Below are positions 22,225 through 36,598 of a stretch of 39,226 nucleotides of DNA, one piece after another; position 1 is the first letter of the stretch; the number at the start of each line of letters is the position of its first letter. The translations under genes were made by a program, and so were the position numbers. Below the pieces are notes generated by a model. It had not been told where the DNA came from and did not search any database. It worked only from the letters and a program-made list of their open reading frames with translations. Source of the stretch: Limisphaerales bacterium (GTDB taxonomy: Bacteria; Verrucomicrobiota; Verrucomicrobiia; Limisphaerales; UBA11358); NCBI GenBank assembly GCA_003139955.1, contig PLHK01000141.1, positions 12,854 to 52,079 on the forward strand, written 5' to 3'.

Positions 22225-23463
22225 GTGTCTGCCAGTTCCGAAAAAAATCCCGTCTGGATTTGCAGCCAGATTGGCGCGCGCGAACATTTCGCCGTTCCGC
22301 GTACCTTGCATCAAGACGGCAAGCTGGCGACGCTTTACACCGATTTTTGGGCCGGCGCGATTGTCCGGAATTTTTCATCCGGCAAACTGCGCCCGCTAGC
22401 GGCGCGGTTCCATTCTGATTTCATTAACCAGTCAGCCTTGGTGCGGTCATGGAATTTCCGCTCGGTCGCTTGGGAATTTCGCCTGCGCCGGAAATTCGCC
22501 CGGCGTCCATACCGCGGATTCATCGAAGTCGGCCAGCGTTTTGCGCGCTGTGTGCGCGACGATTTGAAACGCCGGACGGACTTGAACCCGAATTCAATTT
22601 TTTTTGCCTACGACACCGGCGCGCTGGAAACGCTGGCGTGGTGTCGCGAACAGAAAATAAAATGCGTGTTGAACCAGATGGATCCTAACCGCGTGGAAGT
22701 GGAGCTTGTGCGCGCGGAAGAAAAACAATGGCCCGGCTGGGCGGCGCAACCGATTCAGGTGCCGGAGGAATATTTTATCCGGCGCGAACAGGAATGGGCC
22801 TTGGCCGACCGCGTGGTGGTCAATTCAGAATTTTCCCGTCAAGCCTTGATTCAGCAAGGTGTGTCGCCGGAAAAACTGGCGATCATTCCGTTGTGCTACG
22901 AGCCAGAAGCCAGAAGCCAGAAGTCAGAAGCCAGAATTTTCAAATTGAATCAGCCGTTGCGCGTGCTGTTTCTCGGCCAGGTGATTTTACGCAAAGGCAT
23001 CCAGTATCTGCTTGCGGCGGCGCGGCAATTGGAACGCGAACCGATTCATTTTGACGTGGTCGGGCCGATCGGCATTTCGCGAGCAGTGATTTCGTCGGCG
23101 CCAAGCAATGTGACGTTTCATGGGCGCACCGGACGGGATGAGGCGGCGGCGTGGTATCGTCGGTCACACATTTTTGTGCTGCCGACTTTGTCCGACGGTT
23201 TCGCCATCACGCAACTGGAGGCGATGGCCCACGGCTTGCCGGTCATCGCCACGCCGAACTGCGGTGAAGTGGTCAGTGACGGGGTGGATGGTTTTGTCGT
23301 TCCCGCGCGCGAGGCCGGGGCTCTGGCCGAAACTTTCCAGCGGTATCTCGCGCAGCCGGAATTACTGCGTTCGCAGTCCGCTGCCGCCTTGGTGAAAGCC
23401 AGACAGTTTACGCTCGGTCGGTTGGCAACCAACTTGGCGCAGTTGGAAGCTAGTTTTAAATAA
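22225..23463 (+). CDS. GT4-family glycosyltransferase with internal heptamer repeat
   Basis: A 412-residue GT-B enzyme. The N-terminal domain contains WICSQIGAREHFAVPRTLHQ and ALADRVVVNSEFSRQALIQQ. The C-terminal domain begins LRVLFLGQVILRKGIQYLLA and includes VTFHGRTGRDEAAAWYRRS and DGFAITQLEAMAHGLPVIAT (EX7E). Between the domains, codons for EPEARSQKSEARIF (about residues 225-238) are made of five copies of a heptamer (bases 22902-22936), so the interdomain linker has been extended by a low-complexity insertion. The start is a GTG at 22225; no ATG fits better. The protein looks intact despite the insert. The donor is unknown. Confidence 0.85.
   Translation: MSASSEKNPVWICSQIGAREHFAVPRTLHQDGKLATLYTDFWAGAIVRNFSSGKLRPLAARFHSDFINQSALVRSWNFRSVAWEFRLRRKFARRPYRGFIEVGQRFARCVRDDLKRRTDLNPNSIFFAYDTGALETLAWCREQKIKCVLNQMDPNRVEVELVRAEEKQWPGWAAQPIQVPEEYFIRREQEWALADRVVVNSEFSRQALIQQGVSPEKLAIIPLCYEPEARSQKSEARIFKLNQPLRVLFLGQVILRKGIQYLLAAARQLEREPIHFDVVGPIGISRAVISSAPSNVTFHGRTGRDEAAAWYRRSHIFVLPTLSDGFAITQLEAMAHGLPVIATPNCGEVVSDGVDGFVVPAREAGALAETFQRYLAQPELLRSQSAAALVKARQFTLGRLATNLAQLEASFK
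22902..22936 (+). repeat. Five-unit heptamer array GYCAGAA inside a GT4 gene
   Basis: Five perfect-length heptamers lie in tandem: GCCAGAA three times, GTCAGAA, GCCAGAA. The array is within the coding sequence and encodes a charged linker between the two GT-B domains. It has the same unit length, copy number and strand as the arrays at 26621-26655 and 27990-28024. Confidence 0.9.
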
Positions 23464-23538
23464 GTGTTTTTGTTCTATGAATTTCAGTTGAATCTGTCTT
23501 TCACCGGCCATCTTTTGTAGAATTGCCATTGGTCATCT

Positions 23539-25023
23539 GTGTTTGAATTGTTATCCATATTGCCCATCGCCTTCTGGGTGGTAGTGGCACTGATCATCGG
23601 TGGCGGCATCTGGTCGCTGCGACGCATCAACGACGGCACGGGCCTGCCATTGCTGGCGGTGTTGGGCACGACGACGGCGTGGTATGTCGGCGACGCGTTC
23701 TACAATGATTACGCGAACCATCACGCCAAGATTTTTGATGCGGCCACGCTGGCGTCAGCGTGGTGGCAGGTGGCGTGGTTTCTCTTGTGTTTTCTGGTGC
23801 TGACGCCGCGGGTTCACGCATGGATGAACCGTCCTTACCTGAACCGCCGCAGCGGGGTTGTCGAGTTGTTCAAGCTCGGCGTGGATCAAGCGGAGATACA
23901 AAAGCAGCTGAACGCGATGTTTCAAGGCTGCGTGCTGGTTTGGACGCTGCTGGCGGTCATCGCCCTCATCATGCTCAAGGGGGATTTCGTCTATTATCTT
24001 TTTCCGTTTCTGGGTTTTAAGGCGAGTCCGTGGTCGCACGGGCGGATTGGTGCGGGCTTCGACGCCTTTTCCGTCATCGCCGTCTATCTGCAATTGCTGA
24101 CGTCCACGATGTTCGGCGTGGTGGCGGCGCTGGCCACGGATCGGCGCATTCGCAGTCAGGCGATAATTTTCTGCCTGCTGGCGTGGCCGTTTTTCATCTT
24201 CGACCGCGCCCGCAACGCGATGCTGGCCATGGTGATTCCCGCCATGTTGAGCTGGGTCTTTCTCCGGTTGCGCGGCGGCATGGTGAAAAAAATCCTCGTG
24301 CTGCTCGCCTGCTTCCTGATCGTGAACACCTGGATGAAATTTGTCATCGCCAACCGCTCCGGCGGGACCATCACCGAGGCCTTCAAACAAAAAGGCTTGA
24401 ACATCGCCGACCAAAAAAAAGTCCACAACGAGGGCTTGAATATGTATGAAGAATTATGCTGGATCAGCACCTTCATTGATAACGGCAAATACAAGGTCAA
24501 CTGGGGGGCGCGCTATTTTGCGGAAATTGTGAACCCGATTCCGCGCGGATTGTGGCACGGCAAGCCCATGATCGGGCTGGACTACGCCATCGCCCGCGGT
24601 TTTGGTCAGGCCGATGACACGCAAGGCGGAGTGAACACCACCATTTCCACCGGCTTCATCGGACAGGGCGTGGTCAACTTCGGTCGCGTTTTGGGGCCAA
24701 TGGCGGCGGCGTTGCTGATGAGCCTTTGGGTGGCGTGGCTGGCGCGGCTCGATTTGAACATACACGCGCTGGGGCGTCTGCCGTTGTATAGTCTGGGAGC
24801 CATTCTTACTTTCAATCTGGGCCGGGACATCACGTTGATGAATTTGTATCCCTTTGTGTTTGGTGCGCTGGCTGTCTGGTATCTTGAATCCCGCATCGTC
24901 CGGCCGGAGCGCGTTACAACGACAGTGCAACCGGCCAATCAGCCGCCGCCAACTGGCCGCCAAGCTCTGCCTTTTGCCCGCCGCACCAATGCGGGCGGAT
25001 TCGTAAAACGCAATGCCAAGTGA
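23539..25023 (+). CDS. O-antigen/exopolysaccharide polymerase, Wzy-like
   Basis: A 494-residue polytopic membrane protein with about ten to twelve hydrophobic segments, starting MFELLSILPIAFWVVVALII. A large hydrophilic loop from about residue 265 to 365 (RSGGTITEAFKQKGLN through NPIPRGLWHGKPMIGLDY) carries the P-R--W-GKP arrangement seen in Wzy-type oligosaccharide repeat-unit polymerases, where this periplasmic loop binds the growing chain. These proteins join lipid-linked repeat units into polymer at the periplasmic face. The sequence family is very variable, so assignment rests on topology, the loop and location among glycosyltransferases. The start is a GTG at 23539. The last residues overlap the start of the next acyltransferase by 11 bp. 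Confidence 0.72.
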   Translation: MFELLSILPIAFWVVVALIIGGGIWSLRRINDGTGLPLLAVLGTTTAWYVGDAFYNDYANHHAKIFDAATLASAWWQVAWFLLCFLVLTPRVHAWMNRPYLNRRSGVVELFKLGVDQAEIQKQLNAMFQGCVLVWTLLAVIALIMLKGDFVYYLFPFLGFKASPWSHGRIGAGFDAFSVIAVYLQLLTSTMFGVVAALATDRRIRSQAIIFCLLAWPFFIFDRARNAMLAMVIPAMLSWVFLRLRGGMVKKILVLLACFLIVNTWMKFVIANRSGGTITEAFKQKGLNIADQKKVHNEGLNMYEELCWISTFIDNGKYKVNWGARYFAEIVNPIPRGLWHGKPMIGLDYAIARGFGQADDTQGGVNTTISTGFIGQGVVNFGRVLGPMAAALLMSLWVAWLARLDLNIHALGRLPLYSLGAILTFNLGRDITLMNLYPFVFGALAVWYLESRIVRPERVTTTVQPANQPPPTGRQALPFARRTNAGGFVKRNAK

Positions 25024-25993
25024 CCGGCGCATATCCGAATTAGACGTTCTCCGCGCGGCGGCCATTTTTGGCGTCGTGGTGATTCATTCCAGTTTTGGCG
25101 GGCGCTTTGATCAAAAGACCATGGCCGTCCAAGCGGGGCTGGCGAGATTTTTTGACTGGGCGGTGCTCGCTTTTTTTTTCAGTTCCGGCTTCCTGCACGA
25201 CCGAAACGCGCCGTTCATCACCACCTTGAGGAAACGGGCGGCGGCGTTGCTCATCCCGTTCTTTTTGTATAACGCGTTTTACATCGTTTGTTTCTTGTTG
25301 CTGGAAGCCGCAGGCTGGTTGCCGGCGGGAACACTGAAGGTTCATCTTAATTCATTTGACGCGGCGATGTCTTGTTCGCCCGCTTTTCAACTCTATTTCC
25401 TGCCCTACTTGTTTGTGATTTCAACCGGCGTCGGCGGACTCGAAAAACTGATGCATCGCCACTGCCGCTGGAGTTATCTGGCGATGTTCAGCCTGATCGT
25501 GATGTTTTATCTCGAACACGGATATCCCCAAATGTCGCACGGCTCAAATTCTAGCAATCTGCCCATGTATCTTGCCGCTTTTTTAATCGGCATCGCCAGC
25601 CGGCCATTTCTGGAAAAACCGCTGGCCGGGCTGCAGACTTTCTGGACGGCAATCTTTTTGCTGGCAAGCATACTGGCGCTCTTCCGCTTTTGCGAAGCAT
25701 CATTGCTGGTGCCTCCGTTCTTGACCGCGATGGCGGGAGGAATCCAGTTTATCCGTAATTCCGGCCTGCTCCAATTTGTCGGTCGGATGGCTGGAAGCAT
25801 TTATCTGTGGCACACCCCGCTCATTTTGCCGGTCTTGGCGAGAATTCTGTCAGGTTGCGGGGTTCCGTCCTTGGTGAACTTTTTTGGCTCCATCGTTTTG
25901 ACTTTGACAATCTGCATCTTGTTACGGGTAGGTTTGGATGCCATCTTTCTGAAAATGATGAAACGCACCACGCCAAGGTTTTTAACGCTCTGA
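25013..25993 (+). CDS. Membrane acyltransferase, acyltransferase-3 family
   Basis: A 326-residue protein with about ten hydrophobic segments. ISELDVLRAAAIFGVVVIHS gives the family's R-x10-H signature, and LAFFFSSGFLHDR and LLIPFFLYNAFYIV follow. The C-terminal half has FVGRMAGSIYLWHTPLI, the usual H-P-pair region late in these proteins. The ATG at 25013 overlaps the polymerase gene by 11 bp, so the two are probably translated together. As the third acyltransferase of the locus, it may acylate a different sugar of the repeat unit. Confidence 0.83.
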   Translation: MPSDRRISELDVLRAAAIFGVVVIHSSFGGRFDQKTMAVQAGLARFFDWAVLAFFFSSGFLHDRNAPFITTLRKRAAALLIPFFLYNAFYIVCFLLLEAAGWLPAGTLKVHLNSFDAAMSCSPAFQLYFLPYLFVISTGVGGLEKLMHRHCRWSYLAMFSLIVMFYLEHGYPQMSHGSNSSNLPMYLAAFLIGIASRPFLEKPLAGLQTFWTAIFLLASILALFRFCEASLLVPPFLTAMAGGIQFIRNSGLLQFVGRMAGSIYLWHTPLILPVLARILSGCGVPSLVNFFGSIVLTLTICILLRVGLDAIFLKMMKRTTPRFLTL

Positions 25994-26051
25994 ACGAAAG
26001 CGCGTAGATTTCTAACCAGCAATTTTTTCCGCAGCAAAATTCTTTTATTCC

Positions 26052-27299
26052 ATGCTTCCCGCTTCCCGTCTTGATGATCTGCCCGGCACAACACGCGTTG
26101 CGGTTTTGTTCCAGCGCTTCGGCCCGTATCATCACGCGCGCCTGAATGCCGCCGGCAAGTTGCTGTCGGTTTGGGGCGTGGAAGCGTGCGCTATAGAGAA
26201 CACCTACGCTTGGGACAAAGTCGAAGGCGCGTCCGCCTTCACGCGCGTCACGCTGACCGAACGCGATGCCGGCGACCGGCAATGGCGGCACGAACTCCAT
26301 CGCAAAATGTGGAAAGCGCTCGACGAAATCAAACCGCAGGTTGTCGTCGTCCCCGGCTGGTCGTTCACCGACGCCTTGAGCGCGCTTTGGTGGTGTGCAA
26401 AAACGAACACGCCGTCCGTCGTCATGTCTGAAAGCACTGCGTGGGACGAGCCGCGCGTCGCGCGGAAGGAATGGGTCAAAAGCCGTTTGGTGAAATTAAA
26501 TTCCGCCGGACTCGCTGGCGGCACGCCGCATCGCGACTATCTTGTCCAACTTGGCCTCGCGCGCGAAAAAATTTTCCTCGGCTACGATGTCGTGGACAAT
26601 GATTATTTCCAGCGCAAATCTGCGGAAGCCAGAAGCCAGAGGTCGGAAGTCAGAAGCAAACTTGGCCTGCCGGAAAATTTTTTTCTGGCGAGCGCGCGCT
26701 TCGTGCAGAAAAAAAATCTTTTCGGGCTTATTCAGGCTTATGGCCGTTACCGCGCCTTGGCGGAAAAATCAGGAACTGAAAAAGCAAAAATCTGGCCATT
26801 AGTTTTGCTTGGCGACGGCCCGCTTAAAACCGAAATAAAAAAATCAATTTCCGAACTTGGGCTTGAAACTTTGATTCATCTGCCCGGCTTCAAACAATAT
26901 GACGAGTTGCCGGCATATTTCGGCCTCGCCAGCGCGTTTGTCCACGCCAGCACGACGGAACAATGGGGTCTCGTCGTCAACGAGGCGATGGCCTCCGGCC
27001 TGCCGGTTTTGGTTTCCAACCGCTGCGGTTGCGCAGCCGATCTGGTTTCGCCGGGCGTGAACGGTTTTCAATTTGACCCGAACAACGTGGATCAGCTCGC
27101 GCAACTGCTGCTGAAAATTTCTGCCGGCAATTTTCCGCTCACCGATTTTGGCGCAGCCAGCCAGCGCCTCATCGCTGACTGGGGAACCGAACGGTTTGCC
27201 AGCGGCCTGCGCGACGCCGTGGCCGTCGCGCTGAACAATCCGCGTCCGCGCGCCGGTCTTTTTGACCGGCTGCTGCTGCGCTTGCTGCTAATCCAGTGA
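26052..27299 (+). CDS. GT4-family glycosyltransferase with internal heptamer repeat
   Basis: A 415-residue GT-B enzyme. The N-terminal domain has RVAVLFQRFGPYHHARLNAA, VVVVPGWSFTDALSALWWC, and SAGLAGGTPHRDYLVQLGL. The C-terminal domain has FFLASARFVQKKNLFGLIQA, LVLLGDGPLKTEI, LIHLPGFKQYDELPAYFG, and the donor site EQWGLVVNEAMASGLPVLVS (EX7E). Residues about 191-202 (EARSQRSEVRSK) are encoded by a five-unit heptamer array at the junction of the two domains. That is the same structural place as in the gene at 22225. The ATG at 26052 is used; the gap from the previous gene is 58 bp. Confidence 0.86.
   Translation: MLPASRLDDLPGTTRVAVLFQRFGPYHHARLNAAGKLLSVWGVEACAIENTYAWDKVEGASAFTRVTLTERDAGDRQWRHELHRKMWKALDEIKPQVVVVPGWSFTDALSALWWCAKTNTPSVVMSESTAWDEPRVARKEWVKSRLVKLNSAGLAGGTPHRDYLVQLGLAREKIFLGYDVVDNDYFQRKSAEARSQRSEVRSKLGLPENFFLASARFVQKKNLFGLIQAYGRYRALAEKSGTEKAKIWPLVLLGDGPLKTEIKKSISELGLETLIHLPGFKQYDELPAYFGLASAFVHASTTEQWGLVVNEAMASGLPVLVSNRCGCAADLVSPGVNGFQFDPNNVDQLAQLLLKISAGNFPLTDFGAASQRLIADWGTERFASGLRDAVAVALNNPRPRAGLFDRLLLRLLLIQ
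26621..26655 (+). repeat. Five-unit heptamer array inside a GT4 gene
   Basis: Tandem heptamers TGCGGAA, GCCAGAA, GCCAGAG, GTCGGAA, GTCAGAA sit within the coding sequence of the GT4 at 26052-27299. They match the consensus of the 22902-22936 array with a few substitutions and encode the domain linker. Confidence 0.85.
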
Positions 27300-27332
27300 A
27301 CAAAAAAATTTCCACCGCCCGGTTTTTTTGAA

Positions 27333-28550
27333 ATGATCAAGTCGGCACATTTGACAGCCTCGGTTTCGCGCAAAGCCGGCGGCCTTTTTGAAGCAATCCT
27401 GCGGCTGGTGCAGTCGCAAACCGATTCGCAAATAAAAGTTTTCGGTTTGCGGGATGAATTTTCCGACGCCGATTTACCGGCGTGGAATCCGGTTTCGGTC
27501 GCCGCGTTCAAAACCACATGGCCACGGGCGATTGGCCGTGCACCGGAATTGCTCGAAGCGCTGAACAAGTTTGCGCCGGACATCTGTCACACGCACGGCT
27601 TATGGCTGTATCCGAGTATCGCCACGAAAAATTACAGCCGTAAAAATAACCGACCTTATCTGATTTCACCGCACGGGATGCTCGATCCGTGGGCGCTGAA
27701 AAATTCGCGCTGGAAGAAATTGATCGCCGACGCGTTGTTCGAGCGGGCGCATCTGCGCGGCGCGCGCTGTCTGCGCGCTTTGTGCGTGTCGGAAGCCGAT
27801 TCCATCCGGCGGCTGCAACTTCAAAATGACATCGCCGTGATTCCAAATGGAATTGATTTGTCAACCGCTGCCGTTCCGTCCGAGCCGCCGTGGAAAAATT
27901 TTGTTGAGCCGGGGAAAAAAGTGCTGCTTTTTTTGAGCCGGATTCATCCGAAGAAAGGCCTCGTCAATTTGCTGAAGGCGTGGGCGAAAAATCAGAAAAC
28001 GGAAATCAGAAATCGGAAATCGGAAGAATGGGTTTTGGCGATTGCGGGCTGGGATCAGGGCGGGCATGAATTGGAACTTAAACAACTGGCGACGGAACTG
28101 GAGCTAGTCTGGTCGGATGTCCGCACGCCGGGTCCGAAGGGAAAATTTCCGGGCGTGATTTTTTTAGGGCCGCAATTCAACGCGGCCAAGTCCGCGTGTT
28201 ATCAGCATTGCGACGCGTTTGTGCTGCCGTCGTTCAGCGAAGGTTTGCCGATGGTCGTGCTGGAGGCGTGGGTGAATGCCAAGCCGGTGCTGATGACGCC
28301 AGAATGTAATTTGCCGGAAGGATTTTCCGCCGGCGCGGCGCTGAAAATGGAAACGACCGAGGCAAGTTTGGTCGTCGGACTGAATGAGTTGCAACGCATG
28401 ACGGATGCGGAGCGGGTGGCGATGGGCAATCGCGCGCGGGAATTGGTGGTGGCGCGTTTCACCTGGTCGCAGGTTGCGCGGCAATTGAGCGCGGTCGAGC
28501 AATGGATTTTGGGCGGCGGCGAAAAACCGGATTGTATCCTGCGCGCTTGA
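27333..28550 (+). CDS. GT4-family glycosyltransferase with internal heptamer repeat
   Basis: A 405-residue GT-B enzyme. It starts MIKSAHLTASVSRKAGGLFE, with the glycine loop of the acceptor domain, then DICHTHGLWLYPSIATKNYS and YLISPHGMLDPWALKNSRWK, which is a signature of a common GT4 subgroup in polysaccharide clusters. The C-terminal domain has VLLFLSRIHPKKGLVNLLKA, VIFLGPQFNAAKSACYQHC, and EGLPMVVLEAWVNAKPVLMT (EX7E). A charged segment NQKTEIRNRKSEEW at about residues 220-233 comes from a heptamer array (bases 27990-28024) placed in a surface loop after the first helix of the C-terminal domain. Confidence 0.87.
   Translation: MIKSAHLTASVSRKAGGLFEAILRLVQSQTDSQIKVFGLRDEFSDADLPAWNPVSVAAFKTTWPRAIGRAPELLEALNKFAPDICHTHGLWLYPSIATKNYSRKNNRPYLISPHGMLDPWALKNSRWKKLIADALFERAHLRGARCLRALCVSEADSIRRLQLQNDIAVIPNGIDLSTAAVPSEPPWKNFVEPGKKVLLFLSRIHPKKGLVNLLKAWAKNQKTEIRNRKSEEWVLAIAGWDQGGHELELKQLATELELVWSDVRTPGPKGKFPGVIFLGPQFNAAKSACYQHCDAFVLPSFSEGLPMVVLEAWVNAKPVLMTPECNLPEGFSAGAALKMETTEASLVVGLNELQRMTDAERVAMGNRARELVVARFTWSQVARQLSAVEQWILGGGEKPDCILRA
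27990..28024 (+). repeat. Five-unit heptamer array AATCRGA inside a GT4 gene
   Basis: Tandem heptamers AATCAGA, AAACGGA, AATCAGA, AATCGGA, AATCGGA. Rotated, they fit GAARYCR, the same consensus as the other two arrays but with an AT rather than a GC variant. The array lies in frame inside the GT4 at 27333-28550. Confidence 0.85.
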
Positions 28551-28554
28551 AGGC

Positions 28555-29184
28555 ATGGGCGAAACTCTTACAATCTGCCACGACATGAGCGAGTCAAAAT
28601 CTCCCAACGACCACGGCGAGTCTGTCTTCGGCTCGCAAACGGTGGATTTGTCGCGTTACTCGCCCGGACAATTTAATCGCGGCGCGGGCGTGATGAAGGA
28701 AGGACTTTGGCTCGTCATTAGTTTAATTTTATTCCGGCTGTGTCCGTTCAGTTTTTCCGCGTTGAAATGTTCGGTGTTGCGCGCGTTCGGGGCGCGCATC
28801 GGCCGCAACGTCACCATCAAGCCGCAGGTAAAAATCACTTTTCCGTGGAAGCTCGCCGTTGGCGACCACGTCTGGCTGGGCGAGGAATGCTGGCTGCTGA
28901 ATCTGGAGCGCATCGTCATCGGCAGCCACGTCTGCATTTCGCAGCGCGCGTTTCTTTGCACCGGCAGCCACAATTTCAAACGGGCCACGTTTGATTTGAT
29001 CACGCAGCCGATCGCATTGGAAGACGGCGTTTGGATCGGCGCCAGCGGCTGGGTTGGTCCGGGCGTGACGCTCGGTTCCCACGCGGTTTTGACGGCGGGT
29101 TCCGTGGCCGCAAAAAATCTGGCTGCGAATGGGATTTATCGCGGCAACCCCGCAGAGTTGGTGCGGCAACGCGTCATTTCTTGA
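28555..29184 (+). CDS. WcaF-like hexapeptide-repeat acetyltransferase
   Basis: A 209-residue protein of the left-handed beta-helix acyltransferase group, closest in pattern to colanic-acid WcaF. VDLSRYSPGQFNRGAGVMKE is the typical N-terminal WcaF segment. Hexapeptide turns follow (IGRNVTIKPQVKITFPWKLA, VGDHVWLGEECWLLNLERIV, IGSHVCISQRAFLCTGSHNF), with the catalytic His in the TGSHNF motif. The C-terminal VWIGASGWVGPGVTLGSHAV and NGIYRGNPAELVRQR close the helix. It should acetylate a sugar hydroxyl using acetyl-CoA in the cytoplasm, unlike the three membrane acyltransferases of this locus. The ATG at 28555 is five bases after the previous stop; an ATG at 28585 is possible, since conservation starts only near residue 30. 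Confidence 0.9.
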   Translation: MGETLTICHDMSESKSPNDHGESVFGSQTVDLSRYSPGQFNRGAGVMKEGLWLVISLILFRLCPFSFSALKCSVLRAFGARIGRNVTIKPQVKITFPWKLAVGDHVWLGEECWLLNLERIVIGSHVCISQRAFLCTGSHNFKRATFDLITQPIALEDGVWIGASGWVGPGVTLGSHAVLTAGSVAAKNLAANGIYRGNPAELVRQRVIS

Positions 29185-29210
29185 ATTTCAATCCGGGAAA
29201 TAAATCAAAC

Positions 29211-30812
29211 ATGGACAAGCCTGAAACAATCTCCGCCGCGCCCGAAAGAAACCGCGTCATCTTGAAATGGGCGTTGCTGATTTTACCATTGGGCTATCTG
29301 TGGTTTCGCCTGATTGACGATCTGCGTTTGGAATGGGCGACGAATCCGCAGTATAGCTACGGCCTCGTGGTGCCATTGCTGGTGATCGGATTGCTGCTGC
29401 GGCGCTGGCAGCACGCCAAAAATCAAAATTGTTTTTCGGTGGCGGAAAATCCGTGGCTGGCCGTGTGGTTTTGCGGCGGCCTCGCGTTTCTTTATCTGCC
29501 GACGCGGCTGGTTGAAGAAGCCACGCCCGAGTGGCGACCGGTGCAATGGCTGCTGGCGGTTGAAATCGTCGGCCTGACCCTTTACGTTGTTTATCTCGCG
29601 GGCGGAAAAGGCTGGCTGCGGCAATTGGCGTTTCCAATTTTATTTTTCCTGGTGGCAGTTCCGTGGCCGACGCCCATCGAGGCGCCGATCATCCAGGGCT
29701 TGAGCCGCATGAACGCCGCGCTGGTCGTGGAAGTGCTCGGCTTTCTGGACGTGCCCGCGATCCAACACGGTAACGTAATCGAAGTCAGCACGGGCATGGT
29801 CGGCATCAACGACGCGTGCAGCGGCATCCGTTCGTTCCAGTCCAGCCTGATGATCTCGCTTTTCCTCGGCGAATTTTATCTGTTCAACTGGCGGCGGCGG
29901 CTGGCGCTGGTTCCCATCGGCTTCGCGCTGGCGATGTTTCTGAATCTGTGCCGCGCCTCGTTGCTCACCTGGATCGCGGCGAAAAAAGGCGTCGGTGCGA
30001 TTGCCGAATACCACGACGAGGCCGGGCTGACCATTTTGTTCGTTTGCACGACGTTGCTGTGGGGCGCGGCGTGGCTGCTGAACTGCCGAAAGGTTCCAGA
30101 TGGAATCCAAAAAATTGCGCCATCAGGCAATGTTCCGCCGTCCGTGGCCGACCGCAAAAAAATCCACCGCCGGCGGAATCGCCTTGGCCTCATTTTGATC
30201 GTATGGCTGGTGGTGGTCGAAAGCGGTGTGGAACTTTGGTATCAGATTCGGGAAGCGCATTTGCAACCCGGCCCAAGCTGGTCGGTGAATTTCCCCGAGG
30301 CCGATCCGACCTACAAAGATTTGCCGCTGACCACGGAAGAACACGAGCTGCTGCGTTTCGATCAAGGCCAGCAGGGACAATGGCAGGAAGCCGATGGCAC
30401 GACTTGGCAGGTTTATTATTTCAACTGGTTGCCCGGTCGCGTGGCCGGTTACCTGGCCAAACGCCACACGCCGGACATTTGCATCACGGCCAGCGGTTTC
30501 AAGATGACCGCCGGGCCGGAACTGACCGTGCTCGAGGTGAACGGCGTGGAATTGCCGATGCGCCACTACATTTTCGACAGCTCCAGCGGCCCGCTGCAAG
30601 TTTATCAATGTCATTGGGAAGCCGGCCTCGGAAAAGAGAATTACACGGCGGACGAATCGGCGCGCTACAATCTCATCCGCGGCATCTGGGCCGGACGCGG
30701 CAACAAGGGGCAAAAAGTTTTGGAGATCATCATCACCGGCTACAACGATTCCGCACTGGCGCAACAGGCGTTGGTGCGCGAGTTGCCCAAGTTGATCAAG
30801 GTGGAAAATTAG
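29211..30812 (+). CDS. xrt: Exosortase fused to an EpsI-like C-terminal domain
   Basis: About 533 residues. The N-terminal ~320 residues form the exosortase membrane domain with about eight hydrophobic segments and the catalytic set seen in the family: C203 in GINDACSGIRS, R248 in FLNLCRASLLTW, and H268 in EYHDEAGLT. Exosortases cut and probably transfer proteins carrying PEP-CTERM tails at the inner membrane. After a basic linker (DRKKIHRRRNR) and one more transmembrane segment, the last ~200 residues match the EpsI-type domain, including a KRHTPDICITASGF segment like the H-PE-C--A-G motif of EpsI. EpsI is often a separate gene in exopolysaccharide loci; here it is one polypeptide. The ATG at 29211 is the first sensible start; upstream in-frame codons overlap the previous gene. 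The exact subclass (XrtA-like or other) I cannot assign. Confidence 0.93.
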   Translation: MDKPETISAAPERNRVILKWALLILPLGYLWFRLIDDLRLEWATNPQYSYGLVVPLLVIGLLLRRWQHAKNQNCFSVAENPWLAVWFCGGLAFLYLPTRLVEEATPEWRPVQWLLAVEIVGLTLYVVYLAGGKGWLRQLAFPILFFLVAVPWPTPIEAPIIQGLSRMNAALVVEVLGFLDVPAIQHGNVIEVSTGMVGINDACSGIRSFQSSLMISLFLGEFYLFNWRRRLALVPIGFALAMFLNLCRASLLTWIAAKKGVGAIAEYHDEAGLTILFVCTTLLWGAAWLLNCRKVPDGIQKIAPSGNVPPSVADRKKIHRRRNRLGLILIVWLVVVESGVELWYQIREAHLQPGPSWSVNFPEADPTYKDLPLTTEEHELLRFDQGQQGQWQEADGTTWQVYYFNWLPGRVAGYLAKRHTPDICITASGFKMTAGPELTVLEVNGVELPMRHYIFDSSSGPLQVYQCHWEAGLGKENYTADESARYNLIRGIWAGRGNKGQKVLEIIITGYNDSALAQQALVRELPKLIKVEN

Positions 30813-35941: not shown

Positions 35942-36598
35942 TTAGGACATTTTGTTTTTGCGCAGGATGCGAACGGTGCTCACACCGAACGGCAACAGCA
36001 ACAACGCACCGGCAACCACCGTGCTGGGTTCGGGCACCGCAGCAGTGAAACCCAACTGGGGTTGGGCATAGCCGCCGGGACCGGTCAAGTTTATGGCGTA
36101 AACAACACCACCCGCAACACCCGTGTCAGCTCCTGTGATGGTTGAATCATTCAAACCGAGGGCAGTTTCAGCCAAGGTAACAAATGTGTTGTCCGCGCCA
36201 AAATTTTGCCCTTGCAACCACCAGATCGCCGCCTGAAGCGCATTGGCTGAAGCAGCACTGCCGTAGGTGTAGCCTGCCAGCGTGCCGAGTCTAAACTGGC
36301 TGTAAAGATAGGCCGTTCCGATGGCAATCGAAGTGCCGCTGGGCTCAATGGTGCTGCTCGTTGAGTAATTATATGTAGTTCCGGGATGAAACAAAACATT
36401 TTCGGCCAAGCAGAACGTATCAAACGTTCCAAGTCCGCCGGTTGTCACCGCCGTGAAGGCGCCACCGCTGTTGGCGTTGCCGTAATCTTCAGTGAGGGTG
36501 ATGGTGCCAATGGTTGCCAGCGCATTTGATGCAGTCAATACGGTTGCAACGCCAAGCAGCGCGCAACAGGTTTTTATAGCTTTTATTTTCATTTTCAT
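35942..36598 (-). CDS. PEP-CTERM surface protein with thioester-domain (TED)-like motifs
   Basis: A 218-residue secreted protein. The signal peptide (residues 1-28, cleavage after NALA) is followed by a ~155-residue domain and a complete PEP-CTERM tail: VPEPST at 188-193, a hydrophobic stretch VVAGALLLLPFGVSTV, and a basic end RILRKNK. The tail is the recognition signal for exosortase, and the exosortase gene lies 5 kb away in the same cluster. The domain has TFCLAEN with C63 and ALQAAIWWLQG with Q122, the two places where the streptococcal-type thioester domain has Cys and Gln (patterns FC-hydrophobic and hydrophobic-Q-x-x-hydrophobic-W), and AYLYSQFRLGTLAGY between them. If formed, a Cys63-Gln122 thioester would allow covalent binding to amines or other nucleophiles. 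The start is ATG at 36598 (MKMK), with AAAAGG about 12 bases upstream. The PEP-CTERM call is certain; the thioester is inferred from motifs. Confidence 0.93.
   Translation of the reverse strand: MKMKIKAIKTCCALLGVATVLTASNALATIGTITLTEDYGNANSGGAFTAVTTGGLGTFDTFCLAENVLFHPGTTYNYSTSSTIEPSGTSIAIGTAYLYSQFRLGTLAGYTYGSAASANALQAAIWWLQGQNFGADNTFVTLAETALGLNDSTITGADTGVAGGVVYAINLTGPGGYAQPQLGFTAAVPEPSTVVAGALLLLPFGVSTVRILRKNKMS

Follow-up and report, generated by a model that had tools for sequence, protein, structure and literature searches.

Introduction

Repeats built from seven-nucleotide units (heptamers), or carried in frame within unrelated genes, are already in print for Geobacter, Xanthomonas and Nostoc, Beggiatoaceae, the P6b element of the Nostoc trnL intron and the Rickettsia palindromic elements. 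Here we describe tandem heptamer arrays that lie inside three glycosyltransferase genes of a Limisphaerales bacterium (Verrucomicrobiota), within a 39,226-nucleotide stretch that we call the window (assembly GCA_003139955.1, contig PLHK01000141.1, positions 12,854 to 52,079), and that recur elsewhere in its genome and in its relatives. As far as the repeat-focused passages of these papers allow a comparison, the nearest precedents are the arrays of Geobacter (PMC2700814), those of Xanthomonas and Nostoc (PMC4692102), and the TAACTGA repeats (PMC4679880); the statements on published systems below are drawn from such passages.

In Geobacter metallireducens, four tandem GGGACCG heptamers occur at 49 places within and between genes, and a second class comprises five MTYCTGA repeats, shown as paired opposite strands (PMC2700814); the MTYCTGA word fits the complement of GAAGTCA, a unit of the arrays described here. 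The Geobacter elements were interpreted either as RNA elements with a regulatory role or as sites bound by regulators, and the passages describing them contain neither a frame analysis nor heptamer swapping at orthologous slots. The GGGNATC repeats of Xanthomonas and Nostoc form dispersed arrays that prefer four units and frequently occur as inverted pairs, with 70 and 75 cases in two Xanthomonas species (PMC4692102). They were explained by G-quadruplexes and are under-represented in coding regions, whereas the arrays here are mostly genic. A preference for about four units recurs in our set (30-33 nt, or 4.3-4.7 units), but four runs of at least three G do not: the window arrays and the frequent genic words AAATCGG, AAGTCAG, AATCCGC and AACTCTC all lack GGG, and quadruplexes by themselves therefore cannot account for the preference for four units.

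Stop codons confine the forward orientation of TAACTGA repeats in Beggiatoaceae, cyanobacteria and Bacteroidetes to the ends of open reading frames (ORFs); these repeats are mostly intergenic, just 5' of start codons, and where they are genic they usually encode residues close to a protein end, in many cases of a short protein without an assigned function (PMC4679880). The P6b element of the Nostoc trnL intron is a heptamer-built, fixed slot whose repeat class has been replaced repeatedly and independently, with repeat number inherited within single-type lineages (PMC4476775). Heptamer classes likewise replace one another at single slots here (in MetRS, GlnRS and the glycosyltransferase GT1), although P6b is a stem-loop formed by the RNA of a single group I intron and the slots here are genome-wide protein-coding linkers. 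Rickettsia palindromic elements (RPEs) are in-frame, palindromic repeats of ~150 bp in unrelated genes (reviewed in PMC10969869). The arrays described here share that in-frame presence across unrelated protein genes, but they are direct repeats of ~31 nt, are length-neutral in the glycosyltransferase GT2, and have an inverted partner in only 4 of 43 genic cases.

A literature search found no match to the exact repeat strings and returned nothing on heptanucleotide tandem repeats in Verrucomicrobia, and the repeat-focused parts of the related literature hold no description of fixed-length, heptamer-swapping slots in housekeeping genes. Our analysis suggests that, on balance, permissive linker slots are filled and renewed by dispersed heptamer cassettes that belong to a pool specific to each genome.

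Results

Three arrays in glycosyltransferase genes

Array coordinates were taken from Tandem Repeats Finder (TRF), and host genes were assigned with Pfam:

22225-23463, + strand: GT1, GT4-type (GT-B) glycosyltransferase, host of array 1
22901-22936, + strand: array 1, 36 nt, TRF period 7, 5.1 copies, 93% match, GT1 residues ~226-237; AGCCA, then GAAGCCA, GAAGCCA, GAAGTCA, GAAGCCA, then GAA
26052-27299, + strand: GT2, GT4-type glycosyltransferase, host of array 2
26625-26657, + strand: array 2, 33 nt, degenerate, TRF period 7, 4.7 copies, 76% match, GT2 residues ~192-202; GAAGCCA, GAAGCCA, GAGGTCG, GAAGTCA, GAAGC
27333-28550, + strand: GT3, GT4-type glycosyltransferase, host of array 3
27989-28025, + strand: array 3, 37 nt, TRF period 7, 5.3 copies, 83% match, GT3 residues ~219-231; GAAATCR-type units plus GAAAACG

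A preliminary reading of the window from its letters and ORFs (the sequence-only reading) had reported three arrays of five GAARYCR-type units each. The arrays are real and lie where it placed them, save that array 2 begins ~4 nt later. Copy number is nearly constant, with five as an approximation: array 1 consists of a partial unit, four perfect units and GAA, and arrays 2 and 3 each include units that do not match (GAGGTCG and GAAAACG). All three arrays do have their purine-rich strand on the coding strand of their own ORF, as had been noted. The two-unit pattern GAARYCRGAARYCR, with up to one mismatch, is matched 12 times in the window against 1.22 times in shuffles, none of 100 shuffles reaching 12.

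The placement of two arrays at the GT-B hinge and one in a loop was borne out by Pfam and by structure models of modest confidence. In GT1 the array falls between Glyco_transf_4 (ending at residue 224) and Glycos_transf_1 (starting at 242), where the model predicts a helix (227-240), with low confidence in its N-terminal half, directly ahead of the C-domain strand at 245. Array 2 sits at the start of the GT2 C-terminal domain by Pfam. For GT3, a helix (219-226) and a strand (233-238) are predicted with moderate confidence, putting the array in a loop ahead of the second strand of the C-terminal domain, with the helix on its other side. The GT1 and GT3 models were built from window paralogs only, 10 sequences each, and with mean pLDDT values of 55.7 and 55.9 their support for the placement comes chiefly from the C-terminal half. 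From its translations we take the window to be an exopolysaccharide cluster, with a presumed exosortase-like membrane protein (29031-30812) and a presumed PEP-CTERM-like tail protein (35942-36598).

A genome-wide class of period 7

The window's own genome (G000; 2.79 Mb, 91.7% complete) holds 12 exact three-unit GAARYCR matches and none of a reversed control pattern; at four units with up to three mismatches it holds ~17 distinct arrays (28 overlapping matches), of which three lie inside 5.1 kb, by our arithmetic a local cluster beyond chance. Three-unit matches occur in 38 of 59 genomes searched, G000 included, and in 28 of the 35 same-genus relatives listed; the 36 genus genomes, again with G000, gave 271 matches, which overlap within arrays, against 42 for the reversed pattern. 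The outcome that the sequence-only reading had named as contrary to its view, arrays unique to three genes and conserved as ordinary protein sequence, is not what we found: arrays occur elsewhere, and the peptide is not conserved.

We then scanned ~0.78 Mb for tandem periods, comprising 382,581 nt of G000 and 400,000 nt of one congener, G001 (the first 200 kb of two long contigs), with genes called by a simple codon-usage caller (coding fractions 0.867 and 0.869). At the stricter threshold, period 7 accounts for 20 and 26 segments, and each other period from 4 to 21 for at most 4. Under the looser threshold the genes contain 43 period-7 arrays, where codon-shuffled genes give 0.2, and no other tested period exceeds 5. 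Period 7 is thus the only over-represented tandem period in the genes of this sample. Their head-to-tail 7-nt units at many loci place the arrays among the dispersed heptanucleotide tandem repeats, also termed short tandemly repeated repetitive (STRR) sequences or long simple sequence repeats (SSRs). The words found include GAAATCG, GAAGTCA, GAATTCA, AATCCGC, AATCCAG, AAATCCG, AAAATTC, AACTCTC and AACATCC; this diversity rules out the single GAARYCR family that had been proposed as a full account.

Genic lengths cluster regardless of heptamer. In the period scan 27 of 43 genic arrays measure 28-33 nt and one exceeds 39 nt; in a less biased set of 77 genic arrays, drawn from the sampled contigs and from loci anchored on five genes with GAARYCR-fetched loci left out, 39 measure 30-33 nt (4.3-4.7 units). 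This distribution bears on plain replication slippage, in which heptamer microsatellites would grow from chance seeds and be trimmed by selection. Units are indeed alike within an array, mixed units resemble intermediates (as at locus L380), and heptamers are the commonest long SSR class in most studied genomes, according to the relevant passages of PMC4679880. Slippage products above the 19-nt detection limit would, however, be commonest near that limit, whereas the observed lengths peak at 28-33 nt with no decay from it, which argues against slippage. One-unit changes would also shift the frame in essential genes, identical heptamers occur at unrelated loci, and GT2 changed at constant length. 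We regard slippage as an unlikely source of the arrays.

Host genes of further arrays in G000, named by what their proteins match, are:

RNA-related: PF00749 tRNA synthetases (GlnRS/GluRS) twice, MetRS, YbeY, QueG, tRNA pseudouridine synthase (TruA)
Others: RibD (two arrays), ArgJ, CbiX, LuxE-type acyl-protein synthetase, methyltransferase
Others, continued: mannosyltransferase/PAP2 protein, TPR protein, VTT-domain protein

The two RibD arrays (L217:3620-4675) differ in heptamer, one being of GAAGTCA type and the other of AATTCAA/AATTAAA type.

These hosts are relevant to phase variation, in which a 7-nt slip would toggle an enzyme on and off. The arrays are heptamers within the coding sequence of surface-polysaccharide genes, and in the parts of PMC13001214 that treat it, neuO carries an AAGACTC heptamer tract in the 5' region of its coding sequence. 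The neuO tract ranges from 3 to 53 repeats and switches by multiples of three units, in contrast to the ~4-5 imperfect, mid-gene units here; arrays also occur in GlnRS/GluRS and MetRS, and among the GlnRS and MetRS matches listed there is one internal stop, outside the loop. A phase switch is a highly improbable explanation.

Orthologous slots share their place and often differ in word

Orthologs of the three glycosyltransferases, GlnRS and MetRS were taken from 49 genus genomes, and slot rows were scored for 10 of 15 GT1, 14 of 19 GT2, 16 of 23 GT3, 24 of 29 MetRS and 30 of 30 GlnRS sequences, leaving out rows where anchors failed or slots were identical and one further MetRS row broken by an internal TGA. 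Arrays, often with a different heptamer, occupy the slot in 6 of 10 GT1, 4 of 14 GT2, 3 of 16 GT3, 12 of 24 MetRS and 8 of 30 GlnRS rows. GT1 slots carry GAAGCCA, AAATCGT, AAAATCG, AACCGCA or GAATCGG, and five of the six 7-periodic ones are 20 aa long. At the site of array 3, the GT3 ortholog L152 has AAAATTC units. The loop is 24 nt longer in GT3 than in the array-free orthologs L132, L134, L135 and L136.

In GT2 the four array-bearing slots measure 19, 19, 19 and 30 aa; of the ten slots without an array, nine measure 19 aa. A solved, array-free GT2 homolog, 4xso (Alr3699), aligns without gaps across the second half of the 19-residue stretch. Together these observations indicate that the array takes up a native stretch of 19 residues whose length stays unchanged. 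The native helix also keeps its i,i+7 spacing. The sequence-only reading had envisaged a repeat family that tolerates insertion in genes; dispersal and tolerance stand, but plain insertion is not supported, since GT2 length is unchanged and in most GT1 and MetRS slots the heptamer changes and the length is kept. In the GT2 ortholog of G010 (L165/L171) the slot carries a large in-frame expansion of heptamer pieces plus the stretch TSPRPSPQGGEGE. That stretch resembles what we presume to be another, more widely occurring, dispersed palindromic repeat.

The retained helix spacing and the hydrophilic peptides could be taken to favour protein-level convergence, in which linker peptides are selected and the DNA repeat is a by-product. 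A 7-nt period, however, repeats its peptide only every 21 nt, so that 31 nt spans ~1.5 peptide periods; peptide selection cannot yield base-level identity of units; and the signal is lost in codon shuffles. Convergence is very unlikely.

In MetRS, array-bearing loops are mostly 21-22 aa (range 17-35), and array-free loops are 21, 21 and 33 aa, or 4 aa where the loop is absent. On a MetRS tree built without the loop columns, the word label requires 14 changes against a shuffled mean of 14.5, with 96 of 200 shuffles as low, and heptamer type is thus without detectable phylogenetic signal; L378 and L379, joined at an SH-aLRT of 99, carry different words. Loop absence, in contrast, is phylogenetically clustered, needing 6 changes, a figure as low in 3 of 500 shuffles. 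We read this combination as old slots with renewed contents. Among the GlnRS and MetRS matches listed, with one genome per species, no frameshift was found at the loop, and no congener exceeds 89% protein identity. Two single loci may be recorded here: the G064 MetRS (L393) has one in-frame TGA far from the loop, a sequencing error or a broken copy, and the loop of the G032 GlnRS ortholog (L363), which in relatives holds heptamer arrays, carries a repeat of another kind, an in-frame, near-perfect palindrome with arms of ~25 nt.

Orientation, frame and intergenic hairpins

The consensus of the 77 less-biased genic arrays is stop-free in the sense direction in 73 and in the antisense direction in 42. 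The sequence-only reading had pointed to the TGA in complements with TTCTGAC units; the argument holds only for units of that type, as arrays made purely of GAAGCCA or GAAATCG have a complement that is stop-free in all frames. Stop avoidance is insufficient as the whole cause of orientation, because words that are stop-free both ways are themselves biased: AAATCGG occurs 34 times in sense and once in antisense, and AAGCCAG 10 times and never. Loci of these two families were partly fetched by GAARYCR, which biases the family counts but not the orientation. Where both strands are stop-free (n=41), the sense peptide is the more hydrophilic in 34 arrays. Taken together, these figures indicate that for most arrays the two filters, stop avoidance and hydropathy, suffice to explain orientation.

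Array starts fall in the three codon phases 85, 51 and 48 times among 184; as 7 leaves a remainder of 1 over 3, a pure array encodes the same cyclic heptapeptide in all sense frames, an arithmetic point already made in the sequence-only reading, and any codon phase is tolerated. Array density is 63 per Mb in genes and 252 between genes, so that genes retain many arrays even though frame and orientation are filtered. Within 110 bp, 14 of 26 intergenic but 4 of 43 genic arrays have an inverted partner (random-place controls, 1 of 78 and 2 of 129), and intergenic arrays are thus often arms of long hairpins.

Word reuse within genomes and breadth across phyla

Identical words recur at unrelated loci: 66 arrays form 46 such pairs, whereas letter shuffles form 5.5 and, in 2000 trials, never more than 16. 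Once GAARYCR is excluded and neighbouring arrays are collapsed, 17 identical pairs are left, of which 16 lie within one genome and one lies between genomes, a split as high in 73 of 10,000 permutations. This reuse speaks for within-genome copying rather than for seeds that arose independently. A reverse transcriptase of telomerase-like or retroelement type that writes repeats from an RNA template might account for the fixed tract length and for units that are nearly perfect copies of a single word. RVT_1, however, occurs in 18 of 49 genus genomes and in none of the array-rich G000, G001, G028 and G029, whose assemblies are incomplete; the arrays seem not to depend on such an enzyme, and we hold this source to be extremely improbable.

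The 25-mer AAATCGGAAATCGGAAATCGGAAAT matched at least 120 stretches in GTDB genomes, with titles from Verrucomicrobia, Planctomycetota, Chloroflexota, Myxococcota, Bacteroidetes, Proteobacteria, Acidobacteria and others. In the 80 loci listed among these we scored 81 arrays, oriented by ORF length alone: 33 are sense, 14 antisense, 12 ambiguous and 22 without an ORF, the last reaching 210 nt. Eleven of the 33 sense arrays measure exactly 32 nt and five 33 nt. On VGYV01 contigs (Planctomycetota; L236, L253, L262, L280, L282 and L291), six AAATCGG arrays of 36-37 nt share a constant 5' TCTG end and differ in their flanks, which hints at defined ends in this assembly.

Such a unit, with its constant end and varied flanks, is what one might expect of in-frame mobile elements, like RPEs or miniature inverted-repeat transposable elements (MITEs), that a transposase or RAYT enzyme would insert as complete units, and the dispersed in-frame copies in unrelated genes and the intergenic inverted pairs fit as well. 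Yet 39 of 43 genic copies have no inverted partner, the arrays are far below the ~150 bp of RPEs, neither a clean empty site nor a duplicated target was found at one genome per species, and GT2 shows no net insertion; we judge whole-element insertion quite unlikely.

Discussion

The reading we favour, that of a heptamer pool renewing linker slots, may be put as follows. Short heptamer cassettes of ~4.5 units (30-33 nt) would form a genome-specific pool of words, found in intergenic DNA, where they are often hairpin arms, as well as inside genes. Genic copies would persist only at permissive linkers or loops, in a stop-free, hydrophilic orientation and at an in-frame loop length. The slots would be old and their content renewed, the heptamer being replaced or homogenised with slot length mostly fixed. 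Copying from the pool would supply the words and selection would act as the filter; renewal might proceed through ectopic copying or slip-and-realign copying by 7 nt, which could homogenise units with length unchanged.

Several observations weigh against this account. The G000 contigs of the period scan had been picked for holding arrays; in 7 of the 41 arrays stop-free both ways, the sense peptide is the less hydrophilic; and GT3 slots are array-free in 13 of 16 rows, with varied lengths. The MetRS tree was a quick one, with strong support for 4 of 26 inner branches and labels assigned by eye. No clean filled/empty site pairs were found in congeners, at one genome per species, and acquisition is thus unobserved. 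Array-free loops of equal length could also partly be decayed arrays, a reading against which the native helix argues at GT2.

A further-reaching proposal is that a novel DNA-writing process overwrites ~31-nt coding windows with heptamers from the genome pool, leaving length unchanged, so that linkers are continually rewritten, maybe in many bacterial phyla. We regard this as rather unlikely.

Earlier reports of heptamers are piecemeal across phyla, each with a local explanation, be it a quadruplex, a regulator site or an intron stem. Within one genus, the present arrays point to a general process that reaches into essential enzymes, with a sharp size, compatibility with any frame, and word swaps at fixed slots. 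Two questions become testable: why seven, and what copies the heptamer words. Protein stretches of this kind would accordingly be seen as products of a DNA-level repeat process, and not as conserved protein features.

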